64,000 bases of DNA from Catenisphaera adipataccumulans (lineage in GTDB: Bacteria > Bacillota_I > Bacilli_A > Erysipelotrichales > Erysipelotrichaceae), in the NCBI RefSeq assembly GCF_014202755.1, contig NZ_JACHHK010000003.1, positions 248,001 through 312,000 on the forward strand. The letters are read 5' to 3'. Each line of letters opens with the position of its first letter. Position 1 is the stretch's first letter. The notes beneath the pieces are model-generated. The model did not search any database, had not been told where the DNA came from, and worked only from the letters and a program-made list of their open reading frames with translations. A program made the position numbers and the translations under genes. Positions 8,791-49,502 of the stretch are shown one piece after another.

Positions 8791-8799
8791 GAAAAGTCC

Positions 8800-8952
8800 C
8801 ACTCGATTCGTTTGAGCTTTGACTTTGCGGGGCATGAAAAACTATATTAAAATGCACCTTCGGAATCGATACATCCTGTTCACCAGCGCATGGTGTTTCC
8901 ACCACTCTGCGGCAATAGCCCGGATCCCCGTAGTAGCCTCACCTACCGAACA
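8800..8952 (-). ncRNA. M-box (ykoK-type) magnesium riboswitch
   Basis: The minus strand begins GTTCGGTAGGTGAGGC, continues with a GGTGGAAACACC hairpin and CGCTGGTGAACAGGATG, and ends with CAAAGCTCAAACGA. These are the conserved 5' and 3' core blocks of Mg2+-sensing M-box RNAs. It precedes an intrinsic terminator and mgtE. High Mg2+ is expected to stabilise the aptamer and permit termination. A covariance-model search would confirm it. Confidence 0.88.
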
Positions 8953-8966
8953 ATATATCCACATTC

Positions 8967-37339: not shown

Positions 37340-38187
37340 ACGATCAAATTGATGCAGCCGAGCACAAATCCGATCAAGGCGCCCAATCGGATGATCAACG
37401 TCAGCTCTTTGTTCATGGCCATCAGCACCAGATCCTCCACTTGTTTCACACTCATTACGTTGATCTTTTCTTCTACCATACCCGATACATGAAAGGTTTC
37501 CAATACCGTCGGCAGATAACGATCGACCGCCTGCCGATAATACATATGGATCCGTTCATTGATCCGGTCTTCATCCAAGCCGCCGTCGGTCATCAGCTCG
37601 TGCAGCGACTGATGACGTAAAGCAGAAACTTGATCATGAACGGCCTGTTCGATATAATCCGGACCTTCTTCTGCAACGAATTTTTCCACTTCATCGGCCA
37701 TCATGCCGGCCATCGAATCGCCGAAACCATCCGAAAGCAGACGGCCCACAAAAGATCCTTTGGTTTTTTCTGCGATCATCTTAGATGCTTTCTTCTGGAC
37801 CATACCATGAATATCTGCTTCGTTCACGGTCTGTTCGATCCGTCCGGCAATCAGCTTTTCCCACGGCTGCGTATCAGCCGGCATCCAGTCGCTCAATGGC
37901 TGCTGCAGCGCCTGTCGAATTTTATCGGTGATCAATTTCTCCAATGGGCTGTCAATGAGCTGACTGCGCACATCTTCAACAGACATCAATTGTTCCGATA
38001 CGATCGCGCCAGCCGCTTTGGCGATCCGCGCTTTGCCTTTCGGCACCGCCCCGGGCGTAAACGGCAGCCGGAAACCAAACAGCCGGATCTCCCGACGCGG
38101 ATAAAACAACATCTTGACCGCAATATAATTGGTGCAGTAACCAATCAAGGCACCGATCAGCGGTCCGGTCCACATTTGTAAATTCAT
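37336..38187 (-). CDS. DUF445-family (YheB-like) membrane protein
   Basis: The 283-residue protein starts with a membrane segment LIGALIGYCTNYIAVKMLFYP, followed by LPFTPGAVPKGKARIAKAAG, and ends with another membrane segment (LGALIGFVLGCINLIV). The middle is helical and charged. This layout is DUF445; its function is unknown, although Bacillus YheB relatives sit near the ABC pair yheH/yheI. Overlaps of four bases at both ends indicate coupling to the ABC genes and the rhodanese gene. Confidence 0.82.
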   Translation of the reverse strand: MNLQMWTGPLIGALIGYCTNYIAVKMLFYPRREIRLFGFRLPFTPGAVPKGKARIAKAAGAIVSEQLMSVEDVRSQLIDSPLEKLITDKIRQALQQPLSDWMPADTQPWEKLIAGRIEQTVNEADIHGMVQKKASKMIAEKTKGSFVGRLLSDGFGDSMAGMMADEVEKFVAEEGPDYIEQAVHDQVSALRHQSLHELMTDGGLDEDRINERIHMYYRQAVDRYLPTVLETFHVSGMVEEKINVMSVKQVEDLVLMAMNKELTLIIRLGALIGFVLGCINLIV

Positions 38188-39962
38188 GCAATTCCTCCGT
38201 TTTCGGCTGACGCCGACATGTTTTGATGCCGAACCAACTCGGCATAATATCCATTTTGTTTCATCAATTCAGCATGTGTGCCTTGTTCCTCGATCTTGCC
38301 GTCACGGATCGCGATGATCCAGTCCGCATCGGTAACGGTCGATAATCGATGGGCGATCACGAACGTCGTCCGGCCGGCAGAAACCGTACGGATCGCATTT
38401 TGTATCTTCCGTTCCGTCAGTGTATCAATGGAAGCCGTCGCTTCATCCAGGATCAGGATCTGCGGATCAGCCAGCAGCGCCCGGGTAAGCGACAGCAGCT
38501 GTTTCTGACCGGTAGACAGACTGTCGCCGCCTTCCCCGATCTCATGGTCAAGACCTTCCGGAAACTGACGGACAATATCGTCTGCCGCCATCAAGTGCAG
38601 TGCTTTTTCAATTTGGCGGTCATCCGCCTGTTCATTGCCATACTTCAAGTTCTCCCGGATCGTTCCTGAAAACAACTGCGGTGTCTGCAGCACATAACCA
38701 ATATGGGCATGCAGCCACGACTGACTGCGCTTTCGGACATCTCTGCCGTCGATCAGGATACGGCCCTGCTGCGGTTCGTAAAATCGGCAAACCAGATTGA
38801 CCAACGTTGATTTTCCGGCACCCGTTTCCCCGACAATGCCAACGGTGCTGCCCTGCGGCACATGGAGCGAGAAATGTTCCAGAACATTTTCTGTTCCGTC
38901 CGGATAACGGAAAGTCACATCTTCAAAGGACACATCGCCGTTCAAAGGTTCCCAGTTGTTACGTTTCTGGACAAAAACTGTGCCGTATTTTTCAATTACA
39001 GCCGGCGTATCTTTGACTTCCGGCTGCTGTGCCAGCAGTTCACTTAAACGATCAATGTTGACGCGGATGCCGATCCACGACGCAATGGTATCCATGATAT
39101 TCTGGATCGGAGAAAGAAGGCCGATCGCATAGGACATGAATACCGCCAGCGTACCGATGCGCAAAGCTCCCGAAGCGGTCAAATATCCACCCTGCTGAAG
39201 GACGATAGCCAGCGCACAGGAGGACATCATCGTCACGACCGCGGTCAGCAGCGCGGCATAATGCGTCGTTTTGATCGATGTCTGATACATCCGGCTGGTC
39301 GTATCCTGAAACCGACGAAACATTTTTTGTTCCACATGGTTGATCTGAATACTTTGCATACCCGACAATCCTTCATTGAACCGGTCAGTGATTTCCGCAT
39401 TGATCTCACGGACCTTTCGGTTATAGCCGGTCAGCTTTTTTTGAAAGCTGTAAATGATCACGACCGCGATCGGAATGATCAGTGCCACGAAGAAGGCCAG
39501 CTGCCGGTGGATCGTAAACATGACCGCAAATACGCAGATAACATACGATACGTTCCAGACCAGATCCATCAGACGCCACGCAAACATTTCACCGATCTTG
39601 CCCGTATCGCTCATGACCCGGGCATGGATCGATCCGACATTGTGCTGGTTAAAATACGTAAAGGACAAGGTCTGCAGATGATGAAAAGCCGTATCGCGCA
39701 GATCGCAGTCCAGGCACATCTCGATGCGTCCGCATTGAAACAAACAATAATAATTGTCCAGTTCCTGCAGGATCATCAAGCCAATATACGCACCAATGAA
39801 CATCGGCATCGTATCCAGCGTCTGTCCGGCAATAAAATGATCCAGCGCGTAGCTGGTAAACAGCGGATAAAACGAATCCGCTACGCTGCTCAGGGTTCCG
39901 AGCACGACCATCAGAATCAATGTGCGCCGGTAAGGAATCAAAAAATGACGGATCTTTTTCAT
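38184..39962 (-). CDS. ABC exporter half-transporter (consensus catalytic Glu subunit)
   Basis: The 592-residue protein has a six-helix transmembrane domain (about 1-320) and an ATPase domain with Walker A GETGAGKST, signature LSTGQ, Walker B ILILDEATAS and H-loop IAHRLST. Its catalytic Glu is intact but the signature has T for the second G. With the overlapping partner at 39959-41740 it forms a heterodimer of the BmrCD/TM287-288 type that exports drugs or lipids. The partner starts four bases inside, so stoichiometry is coupled. Confidence 0.9.
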   Translation of the reverse strand: MKKIRHFLIPYRRTLILMVVLGTLSSVADSFYPLFTSYALDHFIAGQTLDTMPMFIGAYIGLMILQELDNYYCLFQCGRIEMCLDCDLRDTAFHHLQTLSFTYFNQHNVGSIHARVMSDTGKIGEMFAWRLMDLVWNVSYVICVFAVMFTIHRQLAFFVALIIPIAVVIIYSFQKKLTGYNRKVREINAEITDRFNEGLSGMQSIQINHVEQKMFRRFQDTTSRMYQTSIKTTHYAALLTAVVTMMSSCALAIVLQQGGYLTASGALRIGTLAVFMSYAIGLLSPIQNIMDTIASWIGIRVNIDRLSELLAQQPEVKDTPAVIEKYGTVFVQKRNNWEPLNGDVSFEDVTFRYPDGTENVLEHFSLHVPQGSTVGIVGETGAGKSTLVNLVCRFYEPQQGRILIDGRDVRKRSQSWLHAHIGYVLQTPQLFSGTIRENLKYGNEQADDRQIEKALHLMAADDIVRQFPEGLDHEIGEGGDSLSTGQKQLLSLTRALLADPQILILDEATASIDTLTERKIQNAIRTVSAGRTTFVIAHRLSTVTDADWIIAIRDGKIEEQGTHAELMKQNGYYAELVRHQNMSASAENGGIA

Positions 39963-41740
39963 TGCTTCTCCTCCCCGCGCATCTGCAGCGCCGCACTTTT
40001 CGCATAAAGACCGCCTTGCCGGATCAATTCTTCATGCGTTCCCTGCTCCACGATCCGGCCATGATCCAAAACATAGATCCGGTCAGCATGCATCAAGGTG
40101 GCCACCCGATGCGAAATGTAGATCCGGGTCGCGCTTTGTGGTTCTGCACGCAGACGTCTGCGGATGGCTTCATCCGTTTCGGCATCCAGCGCCGAAAAAG
40201 AGTCATCGAAAATCATGATCGGCGTCCGACGAATAAGCATCTGCGCAATGGCTGTCCGTTGTTTCTGACCGCCGGACAGCGTGATTCCCCTTTGACCTAC
40301 ATAAGTTTCATAACCTTGCGGAAAGGTTTCCACCGTATGTGTCAGACCAGCCATCGCTGTCACATGATCTATTGCACTGGTCTGATCAGCTGCCAGCAGG
40401 ATATTGTCTTTCAGCGTGCCGGAAAACAAATAGGGCTCCTGACTGACGATGCCGACATGATCACGCAGCCAGCTGCGTTCAATCTCCGACAACGGTGTGC
40501 CGCCGATCGTGATCGTACCTCGATCTGGTTCATAGAACCGATCCAGAAGCATGGCCAATGTAGACTTGCCCGAACCGGTCGCCCCGAAAATTCCGATCGT
40601 CGCACCGGCAGGGATCACCATGGACACATCTTCCAGTACCATTTGTTTCCGATAAGCAAATGATACATGGTTGAAAGAAATCGTCTGGTTCATATTCGGT
40701 TTCGCAGTGCCGGTTTCTGGTTCGGTCGGCGCTTCCATGATCTCACGCAGACGGCCCAAAGAAATACCGGCCTTGCTTAATTCTGCAATGATCCGTCCCA
40801 AGCCGCGCACCGGCATTGCCAGCAGGGCATTATAAGAAATGAATGCGGTAAATTCACCGGCAGTCAGTGATCCGTTGACGCAGAAAATGATACCAGCACT
40901 CATGACGATCAGATCCCGCAGCGTCGCGATCACATTGCCCGAGACCCAGAAGGATGCCATGATCTTCATCAAATGGACCCACAGATTGGTATAACCATGA
41001 TTCTGTTTTTTGAATCGCTCTTGTTCATACGCTTCTTTGCCGAAAGCCCGCACCACCCGAACACCGGTCAGGTTCTCCTGGACAATGGCTGATAATTTGC
41101 CTTCCTCCCGGTCGACAGTCTCAAATGACTCGCCGATCCGACGGTGAAAATAAATTGAACCGCCGACCATCACCGGAATATAGGCTGCGGCGATCAGCGC
41201 CAGCACCGGATGAATGGAAATCATAAAATACAACGAGAAAGCGATCATCAGTAATATCTGGAACAACTTCGTCATCTGCTCCGAAACAAACACTTTGATC
41301 GTTTCCACATCCGAAGTACAACGCTGCAGCAAATCGCCGCTGCGATGCGCAGAACGCCAGGCGGCAGTTGTCCGGGTCAGGTGTTCAAACAGCAGATCGC
41401 GCATCCGCCGGGTCAGTGCTTCGGCCCCCTTGGCATTCAGATACTGAAACGCATAACGAAAGGCTGCGGCCGCCATTGCCATCACGACTACCAAAGCAGC
41501 CATGGCAGAATAGTTTTTCGCAACGGACAGGCTGCGGATATACCGCATCAGCCCGGAAGAGGCCGATGCTGGTGTGCCGACCAGCGCATCGACAAAATAC
41601 TGTATAATTTTTGGATTGATCAGATCGAAAAAAGCCACGAAGCAGGCACAGATCATACCGGCAATAAAAAAGCGCTTTGAGCCAGACAGAAAACGGATCA
41701 TCAAATGTCGATTTTTGATTCGTTCATTTTGTTTATCCAT
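39959..41740 (-). CDS. ABC exporter half-transporter (degenerate-site subunit)
   Basis: The 593-residue protein has a six-helix domain followed by an ATPase domain with Walker A GATGSGKST, signature LSGGQ, Walker B IMIFDDSFSALD and H-loop ISHRVAT. The residue after Walker B is Asp instead of catalytic Glu, so this subunit supplies the degenerate ATP site, as in BmrC and TM287. It is the first gene of the operon and divergent from the GTPase-nuclease gene. No clear ribosome site is visible near the start at 41740. Confidence 0.9.
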   Translation of the reverse strand: MDKQNERIKNRHLMIRFLSGSKRFFIAGMICACFVAFFDLINPKIIQYFVDALVGTPASASSGLMRYIRSLSVAKNYSAMAALVVVMAMAAAAFRYAFQYLNAKGAEALTRRMRDLLFEHLTRTTAAWRSAHRSGDLLQRCTSDVETIKVFVSEQMTKLFQILLMIAFSLYFMISIHPVLALIAAAYIPVMVGGSIYFHRRIGESFETVDREEGKLSAIVQENLTGVRVVRAFGKEAYEQERFKKQNHGYTNLWVHLMKIMASFWVSGNVIATLRDLIVMSAGIIFCVNGSLTAGEFTAFISYNALLAMPVRGLGRIIAELSKAGISLGRLREIMEAPTEPETGTAKPNMNQTISFNHVSFAYRKQMVLEDVSMVIPAGATIGIFGATGSGKSTLAMLLDRFYEPDRGTITIGGTPLSEIERSWLRDHVGIVSQEPYLFSGTLKDNILLAADQTSAIDHVTAMAGLTHTVETFPQGYETYVGQRGITLSGGQKQRTAIAQMLIRRTPIMIFDDSFSALDAETDEAIRRRLRAEPQSATRIYISHRVATLMHADRIYVLDHGRIVEQGTHEELIRQGGLYAKSAALQMRGEEKQ

Positions 41741-41798
41741 AGCTTATACCATATCACAAAATGATCCGCAGATTCTATAATTATGATATTCTATTCGT

Positions 41799-44291
41799 AT
41801 GAAACAAATCACGATCGGTCTGGTCGCCCATGTGGATGCAGGGAAAACGACCACCATTGAAAGTATATTATACGAAGCCGGGGCCATTCGTCATTTCGGC
41901 CGGGTGGATCATCAGGACGCCTTTTTAGACTACAATGAACAAGAGCGCAGCCGCGGCATCACGATCTACGCCAAAGAAGCCCGCTTTACCTGGCACGATG
42001 CCGAAGTCTGCCTGATCGATACCCCGGGTCATATTGATTTCTCCAGTGAAATGGAACGTACGCTTCAAGTACTGGATGCGGCCATTCTGATCATCAACGG
42101 ACAGGACGGCGTCCAAAGCCATACCCGTACGATCTGGGACTGTCTGCAGCACTACCACATTCCAACCTATGTGTTCGTCAATAAAATGGACATTTCCTAT
42201 CAAACACCCGCCCAGCTGATGGCCGATCTGCAGAAAGAATGCAGCGAAAACTGCATTCACTGGAATCAGGAAGACACATGGGAAAACTGTGCCACCATCA
42301 ACGATGAAATGTTGGAGGCATTCGTTGAAAACGGGACCATTGATGAACCGTCCATCCGTCAAGCTATCCGCAGCCGGGAATTGTTTCCGGTTTGTTTCGG
42401 CAGTGCCTTAAAACGCGAAGGCATCAAAGAACTGATCGACCTGGCCGTCCGTTACACTGAACCGCCGGCGGCCAAAGAAACATTTGGAGCCAAAGTATTT
42501 CTGGTGACCGAGGATGAACAAGGCCATCCGCTGACTCATATCAAGATGACCGGCGGCACCCTGAAAGTCAAAGAAACGATCGATGAACAGAAAGTCGATC
42601 AGATCCGGCTGTATCATGGCACTTCCTATACCGCCGTCGAAGCAGTACAGGCAGGGATGATCTGTGCATTAAAAGGTTTAAAAGATACCTATCCAGGACA
42701 AGGATTAGGCAGTGAACCGGACAGCGAGGCCCCGGTTCTGCAGGCGTACATGAGCTACCAAATGATGCTTCCGGAAACGGTCGATCCGCTGCAGATGATG
42801 AACGTGCTCGAACCGATCGCCAGAGAAGATCCCCAGCTGCAGATCGAATACGATGAACGCCGCCATCAGATTTCGGTCCGCATCATGGGTGAGATGCAGA
42901 TGCAGGTGCTGCAGAAAACGATCGCCGATCAATGCGGGGTGACCGTTGGTTTTCAAGCCGGTAAAGTCGTGCTGAAAGAAACCATTGCCGAGCCTGTATA
43001 CGGCGTCGGTCATTTCGAGCCGCTGCGTCATTATGCCGAGGTGCTGCTGAAGATCGAGCCGCTGCCGCGCGGAGCCGGCATCAAGGTGGACAACCGCTGC
43101 CCGATGGAACACCTGGCATACAATTGGCAAAGCGCAATTGTACGCCAGTTAACGGAACGCACACAAATTGGTGTACTGACCGGCAGTGCGCTGACCGATG
43201 TGAAATTCACGCTGCTTGGCGGCAAGGCCAATGTCAAGCATACCTCCGGCGGCGATTTCCGGCAGGCAACAAGCCGTGCGGTACGGCAGGGATTGATGAA
43301 AGCACAGAATATTCTGCTTGAGCCGTACTATCAGTTTACGATCACTGTGCCGAATGCCGTATTAAGCAATGTGCTCTATGATCTGGATCAACGCGGCGCA
43401 CAGGTGGACGTTGCCCAAAGCGACAGCCAAATGATCATTACCGGCACCGGTCCGGTCCGTCAGCTGGCCAATTATCAAATGCGTCTGACTGCCATCACCA
43501 AAGGCCAAGGCACATTTACCTGCACCCTGGCCGGTTACGAAGAAAGTCCGGATGCCGAAGCATTGATCCAAGCGGCGGAATATGATCCGGAAAGCGACCG
43601 CCGTCATCCAACTGGTTCGGTGTTCTGTACCCATGGATCCTCGTTTTCTGTACCGTATGATGAAGTCGAGAATTACATGCACCTGCAATGGGACCATTCA
43701 ACATCGTCCGGTTCTTATCATGCCGTGCGTTATACGATCAGCGAAGAAGAAGCCAAACGCGTATTCAGCCAGGTCTCCGGCCGTAACCGCAGTGAAAAAA
43801 AGATAGACCGCCGGCCAAAGAAAAAAATCGATCTGGAGGCCCAGCCGATCCGTTCACAAACCGTCAAACCGACCTGTATCGTGGTCGACGGCTACAATCA
43901 GATTTTTTCCTGGGACAGCTTGAGAGAACTGGCCCGCAAAGATTATGATGCCGCCAGAGACCGTCTGATCCAGGTATTGGTGGATTATCAGGCCTTTCAT
44001 AATTACCGGATGATCCTTGTATTTGATGCCTATCGGGTGCCGGGCAGCCAGCCGCACGATCAGACCTTGGAAAATACGACCATCGTTTATACCCGCCATG
44101 GCCAGACAGCCGACAGTTATATCGAAAAAATCGTCGGCGATCTGCAGAAGGAATACAACGTGATCGTGGCCAGTTCCGACGGCTTGATCCAAAACTCGAT
44201 CCTGGCGCAGGGAGCCCGACGCATGTCCAGCCGGGAACTGGAACACCAGGCACTGCGGGTCAGTGAACAGGCCAAAGCGTATATAAAATAA
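41799..44291 (+). CDS. Tet(M)-like ribosomal-protection GTPase fused to a Rae1/YacP-like NYN endonuclease
   Basis: Residues 1-650 match the EF-G/Tet(M) class: G1 AHVDAGKT (10-17), G3 DTPGH (74-78), G4 NKMD (128-131), and domain IV/V ending in TAITKGQGTFTCTLAGYEE. The Tet(M) SPV loop is replaced by HTSGG in the domain-IV tip, so tetracycline resistance is doubtful. After a Lys/Arg-rich linker (about 665-690), residues 691-830 form a full NYN domain like Rae1: VDGYN (D697), FDAY (D743), TAD (D772) and ASSD (D794), then QGARRMSSREL. Rae1 cleaves mRNA in the ribosomal A site. No ribosome site precedes the ATG; -10-like boxes end 6 and 17 bases upstream. Confidence 0.88.
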   Translation: MKQITIGLVAHVDAGKTTTIESILYEAGAIRHFGRVDHQDAFLDYNEQERSRGITIYAKEARFTWHDAEVCLIDTPGHIDFSSEMERTLQVLDAAILIINGQDGVQSHTRTIWDCLQHYHIPTYVFVNKMDISYQTPAQLMADLQKECSENCIHWNQEDTWENCATINDEMLEAFVENGTIDEPSIRQAIRSRELFPVCFGSALKREGIKELIDLAVRYTEPPAAKETFGAKVFLVTEDEQGHPLTHIKMTGGTLKVKETIDEQKVDQIRLYHGTSYTAVEAVQAGMICALKGLKDTYPGQGLGSEPDSEAPVLQAYMSYQMMLPETVDPLQMMNVLEPIAREDPQLQIEYDERRHQISVRIMGEMQMQVLQKTIADQCGVTVGFQAGKVVLKETIAEPVYGVGHFEPLRHYAEVLLKIEPLPRGAGIKVDNRCPMEHLAYNWQSAIVRQLTERTQIGVLTGSALTDVKFTLLGGKANVKHTSGGDFRQATSRAVRQGLMKAQNILLEPYYQFTITVPNAVLSNVLYDLDQRGAQVDVAQSDSQMIITGTGPVRQLANYQMRLTAITKGQGTFTCTLAGYEESPDAEALIQAAEYDPESDRRHPTGSVFCTHGSSFSVPYDEVENYMHLQWDHSTSSGSYHAVRYTISEEEAKRVFSQVSGRNRSEKKIDRRPKKKIDLEAQPIRSQTVKPTCIVVDGYNQIFSWDSLRELARKDYDAARDRLIQVLVDYQAFHNYRMILVFDAYRVPGSQPHDQTLENTTIVYTRHGQTADSYIEKIVGDLQKEYNVIVASSDGLIQNSILAQGARRMSSRELEHQALRVSEQAKAYIK

Positions 44292-44315
44292 CGATCGGAT
44301 ATTCATCCGATCGTT
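44290..44315. terminator. Bidirectional terminator after the GTPase-nuclease gene
   Basis: AACGATCGGAT and ATCCGATCGTT are perfectly complementary around a four-base loop and lie between convergent genes. Confidence 0.8.

Positions 44316-46765: not shown

Positions 46766-49502
<2,737 letters not shown>

Follow-up and report, generated by a model that had tools for sequence, protein, structure and literature searches.

The window, a 64,000-nucleotide stretch of a Catenisphaera adipataccumulans contig (NZ_JACHHK010000003.1, positions 248,001 to 312,000 of the forward strand), contains a gene that joins an EF-G-type GTPase to a Rae1/YacP nuclease domain. The gene is a single intact frame of 830 codons plus a TAA stop (Table 1). 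Pfam assigns GTP_EFTU, EFG_III, EFG_IV, EFG_C and then NYN_YacP to the 830-residue product, which can be divided into a GTPase body (residues 1 to approximately 632), a linker (633-690) and the NYN domain (692-829).

Two ABC exporter genes forming a heterodimeric pair (38184-39962 and 39959-41740, minus strand) lie upstream and are divergently oriented, with 58 bp between the start codons of the exporter and the fusion. The TATAAT of a promoter-like element ends 17 bases before the ATG of the fusion, and its mRNA may therefore have a very short 5' leader; the element is a weak candidate, as the promoter scan gave no higher count than shuffled sequences. A Shine-Dalgarno site is absent before the window fusion and present in 64 of 77 other copies. 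Rfam revealed no RNA leader or riboswitch at the fusion gene.

Table 1. Features of the fusion gene and its flanks (window coordinates)
Feature	Position	Strand	Basis
Promoter-like ATCACA-17-TATAAT	41753..41781	+	Weak; scan count not above shuffles
Whole fusion gene	41799..44291	+	Open frame; Pfam; orthologues in other genomes
GTPase (G) domain, residues 1-221	41799..42461	+	Pfam GTP_EFTU; motifs G1-G5 intact; H78 of DTPGH invariant
Domains III and IV, EF-G type, residues 329-503	42783..43307	+	Pfam EFG_III, EFG_IV; model aligns with EF-G over 1-596
Domain-IV tip loop, residues 474-486	43218..43256	+	Alignment; conserved columns
Domain V, residues 506-586	43314..43556	+	Pfam EFG_C
C-terminal extension, residues 586-632	43554..43694	+	Ordered in model; also in unfused relatives
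Linker, residues 633-690	43695..43868	+	pLDDT mostly under 50
Rae1/YacP NYN (PIN-like) nuclease domain, residues 692-829	43872..44285	+	Pfam NYN_YacP; Rae1 by sequence and fold
D697 codon, active-site acid (Rae1 D7)	43887..43889	+	Alignment with Rae1
D743 codon (Rae1 D53)	44025..44027	+	Alignment with Rae1
D772 codon (Rae1 D81)	44112..44114	+	Alignment with Rae1
D794 codon (Rae1 D104)	44178..44180	+	Alignment with Rae1
11-bp stem, T-rich tails; terminator-like in either direction	44290..44315	+	Between convergent genes

An earlier note on this DNA, made from the sequence alone, took the neighbouring exporter as a sign of antibiotic or stalling stress. A comparison of 94 loci does not bear this out: no gene neighbour is conserved among them, stalling-related or otherwise, an ABC protein occurs within two genes at only 5 (scattered) loci, and an ABC exporter as the adjacent gene is unique to the window. 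Going by the title of a cited paper, Rae1 of B. subtilis reportedly shuts down the mRNA of the bmrCD multidrug ABC transporter. By this parallel the exporter in the window might be viewed as a Rae1-type target, but the resemblance may be a coincidence.

The nuclease half is readily recognized. The NYN_YacP match (E 1e-42, residues 694-826) reaches 146.5 bits against a curated cut-off of 24.6, and a PDB sequence search with the last 139 residues yields only B. subtilis Rae1/YacP (5MQ8/5MQ9, E about 5e-22). A separate model of the domain (pLDDT 90) superimposes on Rae1 5MQ9 with a Z-score of 20.3 and an rmsd of 1.8 A over 130 residues, the runner-up having a Z-score of 9.4. The four aspartates listed in Table 1 had been positioned correctly in the earlier note; they match those of Rae1 and are invariant in sets of 19 and 49 aligned fusions. 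Together with the Rae1-like fold of the model, these conserved acids place the domain in the Rae1 group and support the claim of an intact active site. The earlier description of the NYN domain as full calls for a slight correction: of the 166 positions in the family model, the window copy covers 1-135. It stops at the point corresponding to Rae1 residue 140, and the C-terminal part of approximately 30 residues is missing. In Lachnospiraceae fusions the match covers positions 1-165 of 166. Rae1 in B. subtilis is an mRNA endonuclease that cuts in the ribosomal A site (PMC6613710; PMC12320835). It stands alone in the cysS-mrnC-rlmB cluster, whereas the NYN domain of the window is tethered and located elsewhere; the fold, the four aspartates and the ribosome theme are common to both.

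In the GTPase half, the GTP_EFTU match (E 1e-50) spans residues 3-221 and the motifs AHVDAGKTT, RGITI, DTPGH, NKMD and GSALK are all intact, as they are, without variation, in the aligned sets of 19 and 49 fusions. These motifs, the DTPGH histidine and the EF-G fold assign the protein to the translational GTPase superfamily (EF2/EF-G type). With the first 582 residues as query, the PDB sequence search ranks Tet(O) first and EF-G next. Comparison of the modelled body gives Z-scores up to 40 for EF-G and 31.6 for Tet(M); the rmsd of these superpositions is large because the relative placement of the domains differs. Family models nonetheless leave the protein outside both groups: it obtains 394 bits for tet_protect (NCBIfam; cut-off 775), 274 for Tet(M/W) (cut-off 1100) and 269.9 for the EF-G family TIGR00484 (cut-off 659.4). 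Two other EF-G-like genes are present in the window genome. The fold over residues 1-596 and the G motifs are shared with EF-G, from which the fusion differs in a shorter domain-IV loop I (EPLRHYAEV), another tip, the C-terminal extension and the nuclease. The extension carries the family motif SxFCxHGxx..V..D.V..YMH, is absent from EF-G and is dissimilar to the Tet(M) tail. A metal site formed by its conserved cysteine and histidine was considered and rejected, since the cysteine is missing in some fusions.

The tip of domain IV deserves separate attention. It reads GGKANVKHTSGGD in the window copy, the family form being G(K/R)AHxKHTEGGD. In an ungapped alignment of equal length, AHxKHTEGGDF of the family is opposed to YYSPVSTPADF in Tet(M) loop III and YHEVDSSEMAF in EF-G, and the window copy has ANVKHTSGGDF at these positions. 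At the tip loop Tet(M/O/W) read YYSPVSTPAD and EF-G reads SYHEVDSSEM; the Tet loop III sequence YSPVSTPAD is absent from the window copy and NVKHTSGGDF stands in its place. The histidine that aligns with EF-G H573 is kept in most family members and is replaced by N478 in the window copy. The earlier note had argued that the SPV loop is required by Tet(M) and that a resistance label would thus be misleading. The premise is refuted by the Tet(M) triple mutant S508A/P509A/V510A, which is still active, loop length and shape being what matters (PMC4750697); the missing SPV alone therefore does not rule out drug protection. The advice itself is upheld: clade position, low family scores and a loop that differs throughout are better grounds than SPV for doubting the label. 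Automatic 'tetracycline resistance protein' labels for this clade may be wrong in many gut genomes.

In a maximum-likelihood tree the fused and unfused GTPases fall in one clade (100/100), apart from both EF-G and Tet(M/O/W), with EF-G and four Tet-type proteins (one on a very long branch) as the only outgroups. Fused forms cluster weakly within the clade (71/32). The unfused members, proteins of approximately 650 residues in some Clostridium-type genomes, were retrieved by a search with domains IV-V, in which they score 239-261 bits against 299-334 for fusions and less than 119 for EF-G and other paralogues. They share the tip type and the C-terminal extension with the fusions (L173 of Ligilactobacillus salivarius and L150-L155 of the Clostridium type), but lack the nuclease and stop directly past the extension, which has the motif S-x-F/S-C-x-H/K-G...MH. 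Since they end at this point, the nuclease was most simply joined to an already existing extension. One of them, L173 (3986-5920, plus strand), resides on plasmid NZ_CP102520.1, is divergent from rpsN (S14) and carries the NCBI label TetM/TetW/TetO/TetS-family protein. Three fusions from a different family within the class of the window (L041, L042 and L043 in genomes G039, G057 and G018) nest inside the Clostridia clade, which suggests lateral transfer.

An AlphaFold2 model of the fusion, based on 49 aligned fusions, has a mean pLDDT of 85. It displays an EF-G-like body, an ordered extension, a mostly disordered linker and an ordered NYN domain. A frameshift or misassembly artefact can be ruled out: the identical domain order recurs in independent copies from hundreds of genomes, and the fusion is thus neither a chance nor an assembly join. 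With Pfam, the PDB sequence match and the modelled folds in agreement, the two-domain GTPase-nuclease fusion in the window, in one open frame as first described, is confirmed. Measured from MH to VDGYN, the linker spans 67-120 residues in 59 fusions. A 594-residue variant (L054, 5843-7627, minus strand), the sole nuclease copy in genome G053, has the G domain, domain II and part of III running straight into late linker and NYN, without domains IV-V. In genome G322 the GTPase (680 residues) and the NYN domain (160 residues) occupy overlapping frames (L060, 4039-6081 and 6036-6518, plus strand); this split by frameshift may be due to sequencing error, decay or recoding.

How common the domain pair is had been left as a question. 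It turns out to be very widespread in Firmicutes: a scan of GTDB species genomes with the domain-IV signature of the family gave at least 592 confirmed genome matches. The best 80 of these belong chiefly to Lachnospiraceae and Oscillospiraceae, along with Desulfosporosinus, Anaerovorax, Peptostreptococcaceae and Massilimicrobiota, and among these 80 every locus with a complete readable frame carries the NYN domain. In the window's phylum, NYN_YacP exceeds the cut-off in 39 of 392 sampled genomes, all with fusion-sized frames except for one interrupted by a frameshift. The class of Desulfosporosinus has 27 genomes with fused and 8 with free-standing copies (170-193 residues). For Clostridia the domain is found in 161 of 243 genomes; 150 listed rows comprise 79 fusions, 65 free-standing copies and 6 of intermediate length. 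These six, like the other short or odd frames that were inspected, are broken or contig-edge copies (G747 and G556 contain frame breaks, G702 has two open stretches that abut, the 5' end is open in G697, and G684 and G668 are located close to contig ends). NYN_YacP above the cut-off is absent in 178 of 198 class members and in 82 of the 243 Clostridia genomes, so the gene is not essential group-wide.

The distribution of fused and free copies is strikingly regular. Not one of about 250 nuclease-bearing genomes holds two NYN_YacP domains above the cut-off, although these genomes are not independent trials, as the pattern stems partly from shared ancestry. A second domain is lacking in 39 of 39 genomes of the phylum sample, in 20 of 20 fusion genomes reached via named loci and in all 161 Clostridia genomes, and fused and free copies do not occur together in any of the 27 fused and 8 free-standing genomes in the class of Desulfosporosinus. 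The three hits in Clostridia that look like second copies are partial matches of 21 bits (positions 3-49 of 166), and one more among the named-loci genomes is a 20.9-bit fragment. The idea in the earlier note that free-standing Rae1 might be missing where the fusion exists was thus borne out in every genome searched.

The position of the lost gene can also be seen. In the window genome the cluster cysS-mrnC-rlmB-sigma factor-secE-nusG (named from sequence and order, only rlmB via a family search) is intact with rae1 gone; 24 bp separate rlmB from the sigma-factor gene, exactly in the slot after rlmB that free-standing rae1 copies occupy in other genomes. No free-standing gene follows rlmB here, the nuclease being fused and elsewhere in the genome. 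A takeover of the Rae1 role by the fusion finds its strongest support in this empty slot and the exclusion pattern. In a tree of NYN domains ten free-standing copies cluster together (100/94). Another free copy, L193 (2787-3308, minus strand; genome G721), lies outside the rlmB cluster and falls within the fused ones, so that it is possibly a NYN domain split off from a fusion. An unfused clade GTPase is found elsewhere in G721.

The window gene is a member of the known Tet-NYN family. Atkinson (2015) described Tet proteins with a YacP-like NYN domain in ten Clostridiales species, suggested a new resistance mechanism via RNase activity and proposed testing it (PMC4342817). Compared by the description in that paper, the domain order is the same as in the window fusion. 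A literature search found no functional test of a Tet-NYN fusion. Whereas the fusions were treated there as Tet proteins, we find that the GTPase forms a separate clade and that the fusion is far more widely spread and takes the place of free Rae1. New here are the breadth, the finding that fused and free Rae1 exclude each other, the vacant rae1 slot, the separate clade with its own domain-IV tip, C-terminal extension and unfused members, and the correction concerning SPV.

These results lead us to favour, with a confidence a little better than even, a translation GTPase equipped with an mRNA nuclease of its own and acting in place of free-standing Rae1. The ribosomal A-site region, where Rae1 is described to act, is also the docking site of EF-G-type factors. 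The EF-G/Tet-shaped part, GTP-bound, would occupy the factor-binding site on a ribosome that has paused and whose A site is accessible, and the linker would let the Rae1 domain reach and cut mRNA at the A site or the mRNA entry, on the same ribosome or on a queued one. Upon GTP hydrolysis the factor would leave, and tmRNA-SmpB or decay enzymes could complete the rescue (smpB and the tmRNA gene are present and adjacent to each other in the window genome). We infer ribosome binding, GTPase and nuclease activity, the cut position and the order of these steps from the comparisons above. A natural fusion of Rae1 and an EF-G-like GTPase suggests docking by a factor and offers one protein on which this can be tested.

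Some constraints follow from the geometry. When EF-G is bound to the ribosome, the A site is filled by domain IV, with the C terminus far off, near the factor-binding centre. If Rae1 acts within the A site and docking is EF-G-like, domain IV and NYN could not share one A site simultaneously, which would require sequential steps or two ribosomes. A tether of 67-120 residues would permit a hand-over once GTP is hydrolysed, or cleavage either at the mRNA entry or on an adjacent ribosome. The single variant without domains IV-V would fit the hand-over, but may also reflect decay. The window copy, being without some 30 Rae1 residues and having N478 for the histidine, may be altered in function. A bolder form of the proposal, possible if somewhat doubtful, makes mRNA cleavage the output of the GTPase: ribosome-triggered GTP hydrolysis would license the tethered nuclease into the paused A site, defining a new factor class. 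If true, this would be the standard route by which hundreds of gut Firmicutes make a stalled ribosome a tmRNA substrate.

The replacement of Rae1 could also be a plain gene fusion with an unchanged mechanism. It might be argued that the halves do two independent jobs, NYN acting like free Rae1 and the GTPase being a separate ribosome factor that, for example, sets blocked ribosomes moving or releases them; their joining would then serve only proximity of the nuclease to ribosomes or a 1:1 ratio. We regard this as unlikely. Unfused clade GTPases coexist with free Rae1 in five genomes (G618, G726, G640, G675 and G721) and occur without it in G540, showing that the GTPase has its own use, and many genomes with free Rae1 are without any such GTPase. 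The long disordered tether and the free NYN of L193, which looks as if re-split, point the same way. Against these observations, the fused state has been retained across Clostridia, the class of Desulfosporosinus and the window's order, and apparent breakage is rare.

The second alternative is that of Atkinson, namely a ribosome protection protein of the Tet group with a nuclease serving drug resistance. Tet(O) as the top PDB match, the NCBI name of the unfused relative and an EF-G-like layout shared with Tet(M)/Tet(O) (580 residues at about 30% identity, a loop III of the same length) would agree with this, and a differing tip is compatible with activity given that SPV is dispensable in Tet(M) (PMC4750697). 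However, the tree separates this clade from Tet(M/O/W) at full support, family scores are far below the cut-offs, HxKHTEGG replaces YSPVSTP at the tip, the C-terminal segment differs and a nuclease has been added. Given, in addition, a spread over hundreds of species with no tie to resistance neighbours, we consider a resistance role improbable.

PIN-like nucleases often process structured RNA, which counts in favour of a third alternative. Here the GTPase would place NYN on ribosomal subunits rather than on translating ribosomes for rRNA or tRNA maturation, which, according to a citation in PMC4342817, was the first role to be suggested for NYN domains of the YacP type, but this is very improbable in view of the nearest studied relative, Rae1, acting on translated mRNA and of a domain IV and G domain anatomy as in 70S factors.

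Some minor observations concern the wider material. Full fusions were encountered in two records filed as fecal 'Bacteriophage sp.' (L175, MT835563.1, marked unverified; H42, MT835514.1), which are probably bacterial DNA filed as phage. PADLOC gives no match that would suggest a phage or defence gene. On two IMG/VR contigs the sole relative is unfused and lies close to the start of the contig; these contigs are probably host DNA. Elsewhere in the window, an M-box magnesium riboswitch is located at 8795-8957 (minus strand; Rfam RF00380, 91.8 bits), and 46766-49502 (minus strand) holds the ATP synthase genes for epsilon, beta and gamma, ordinary ones as identified by sequence.
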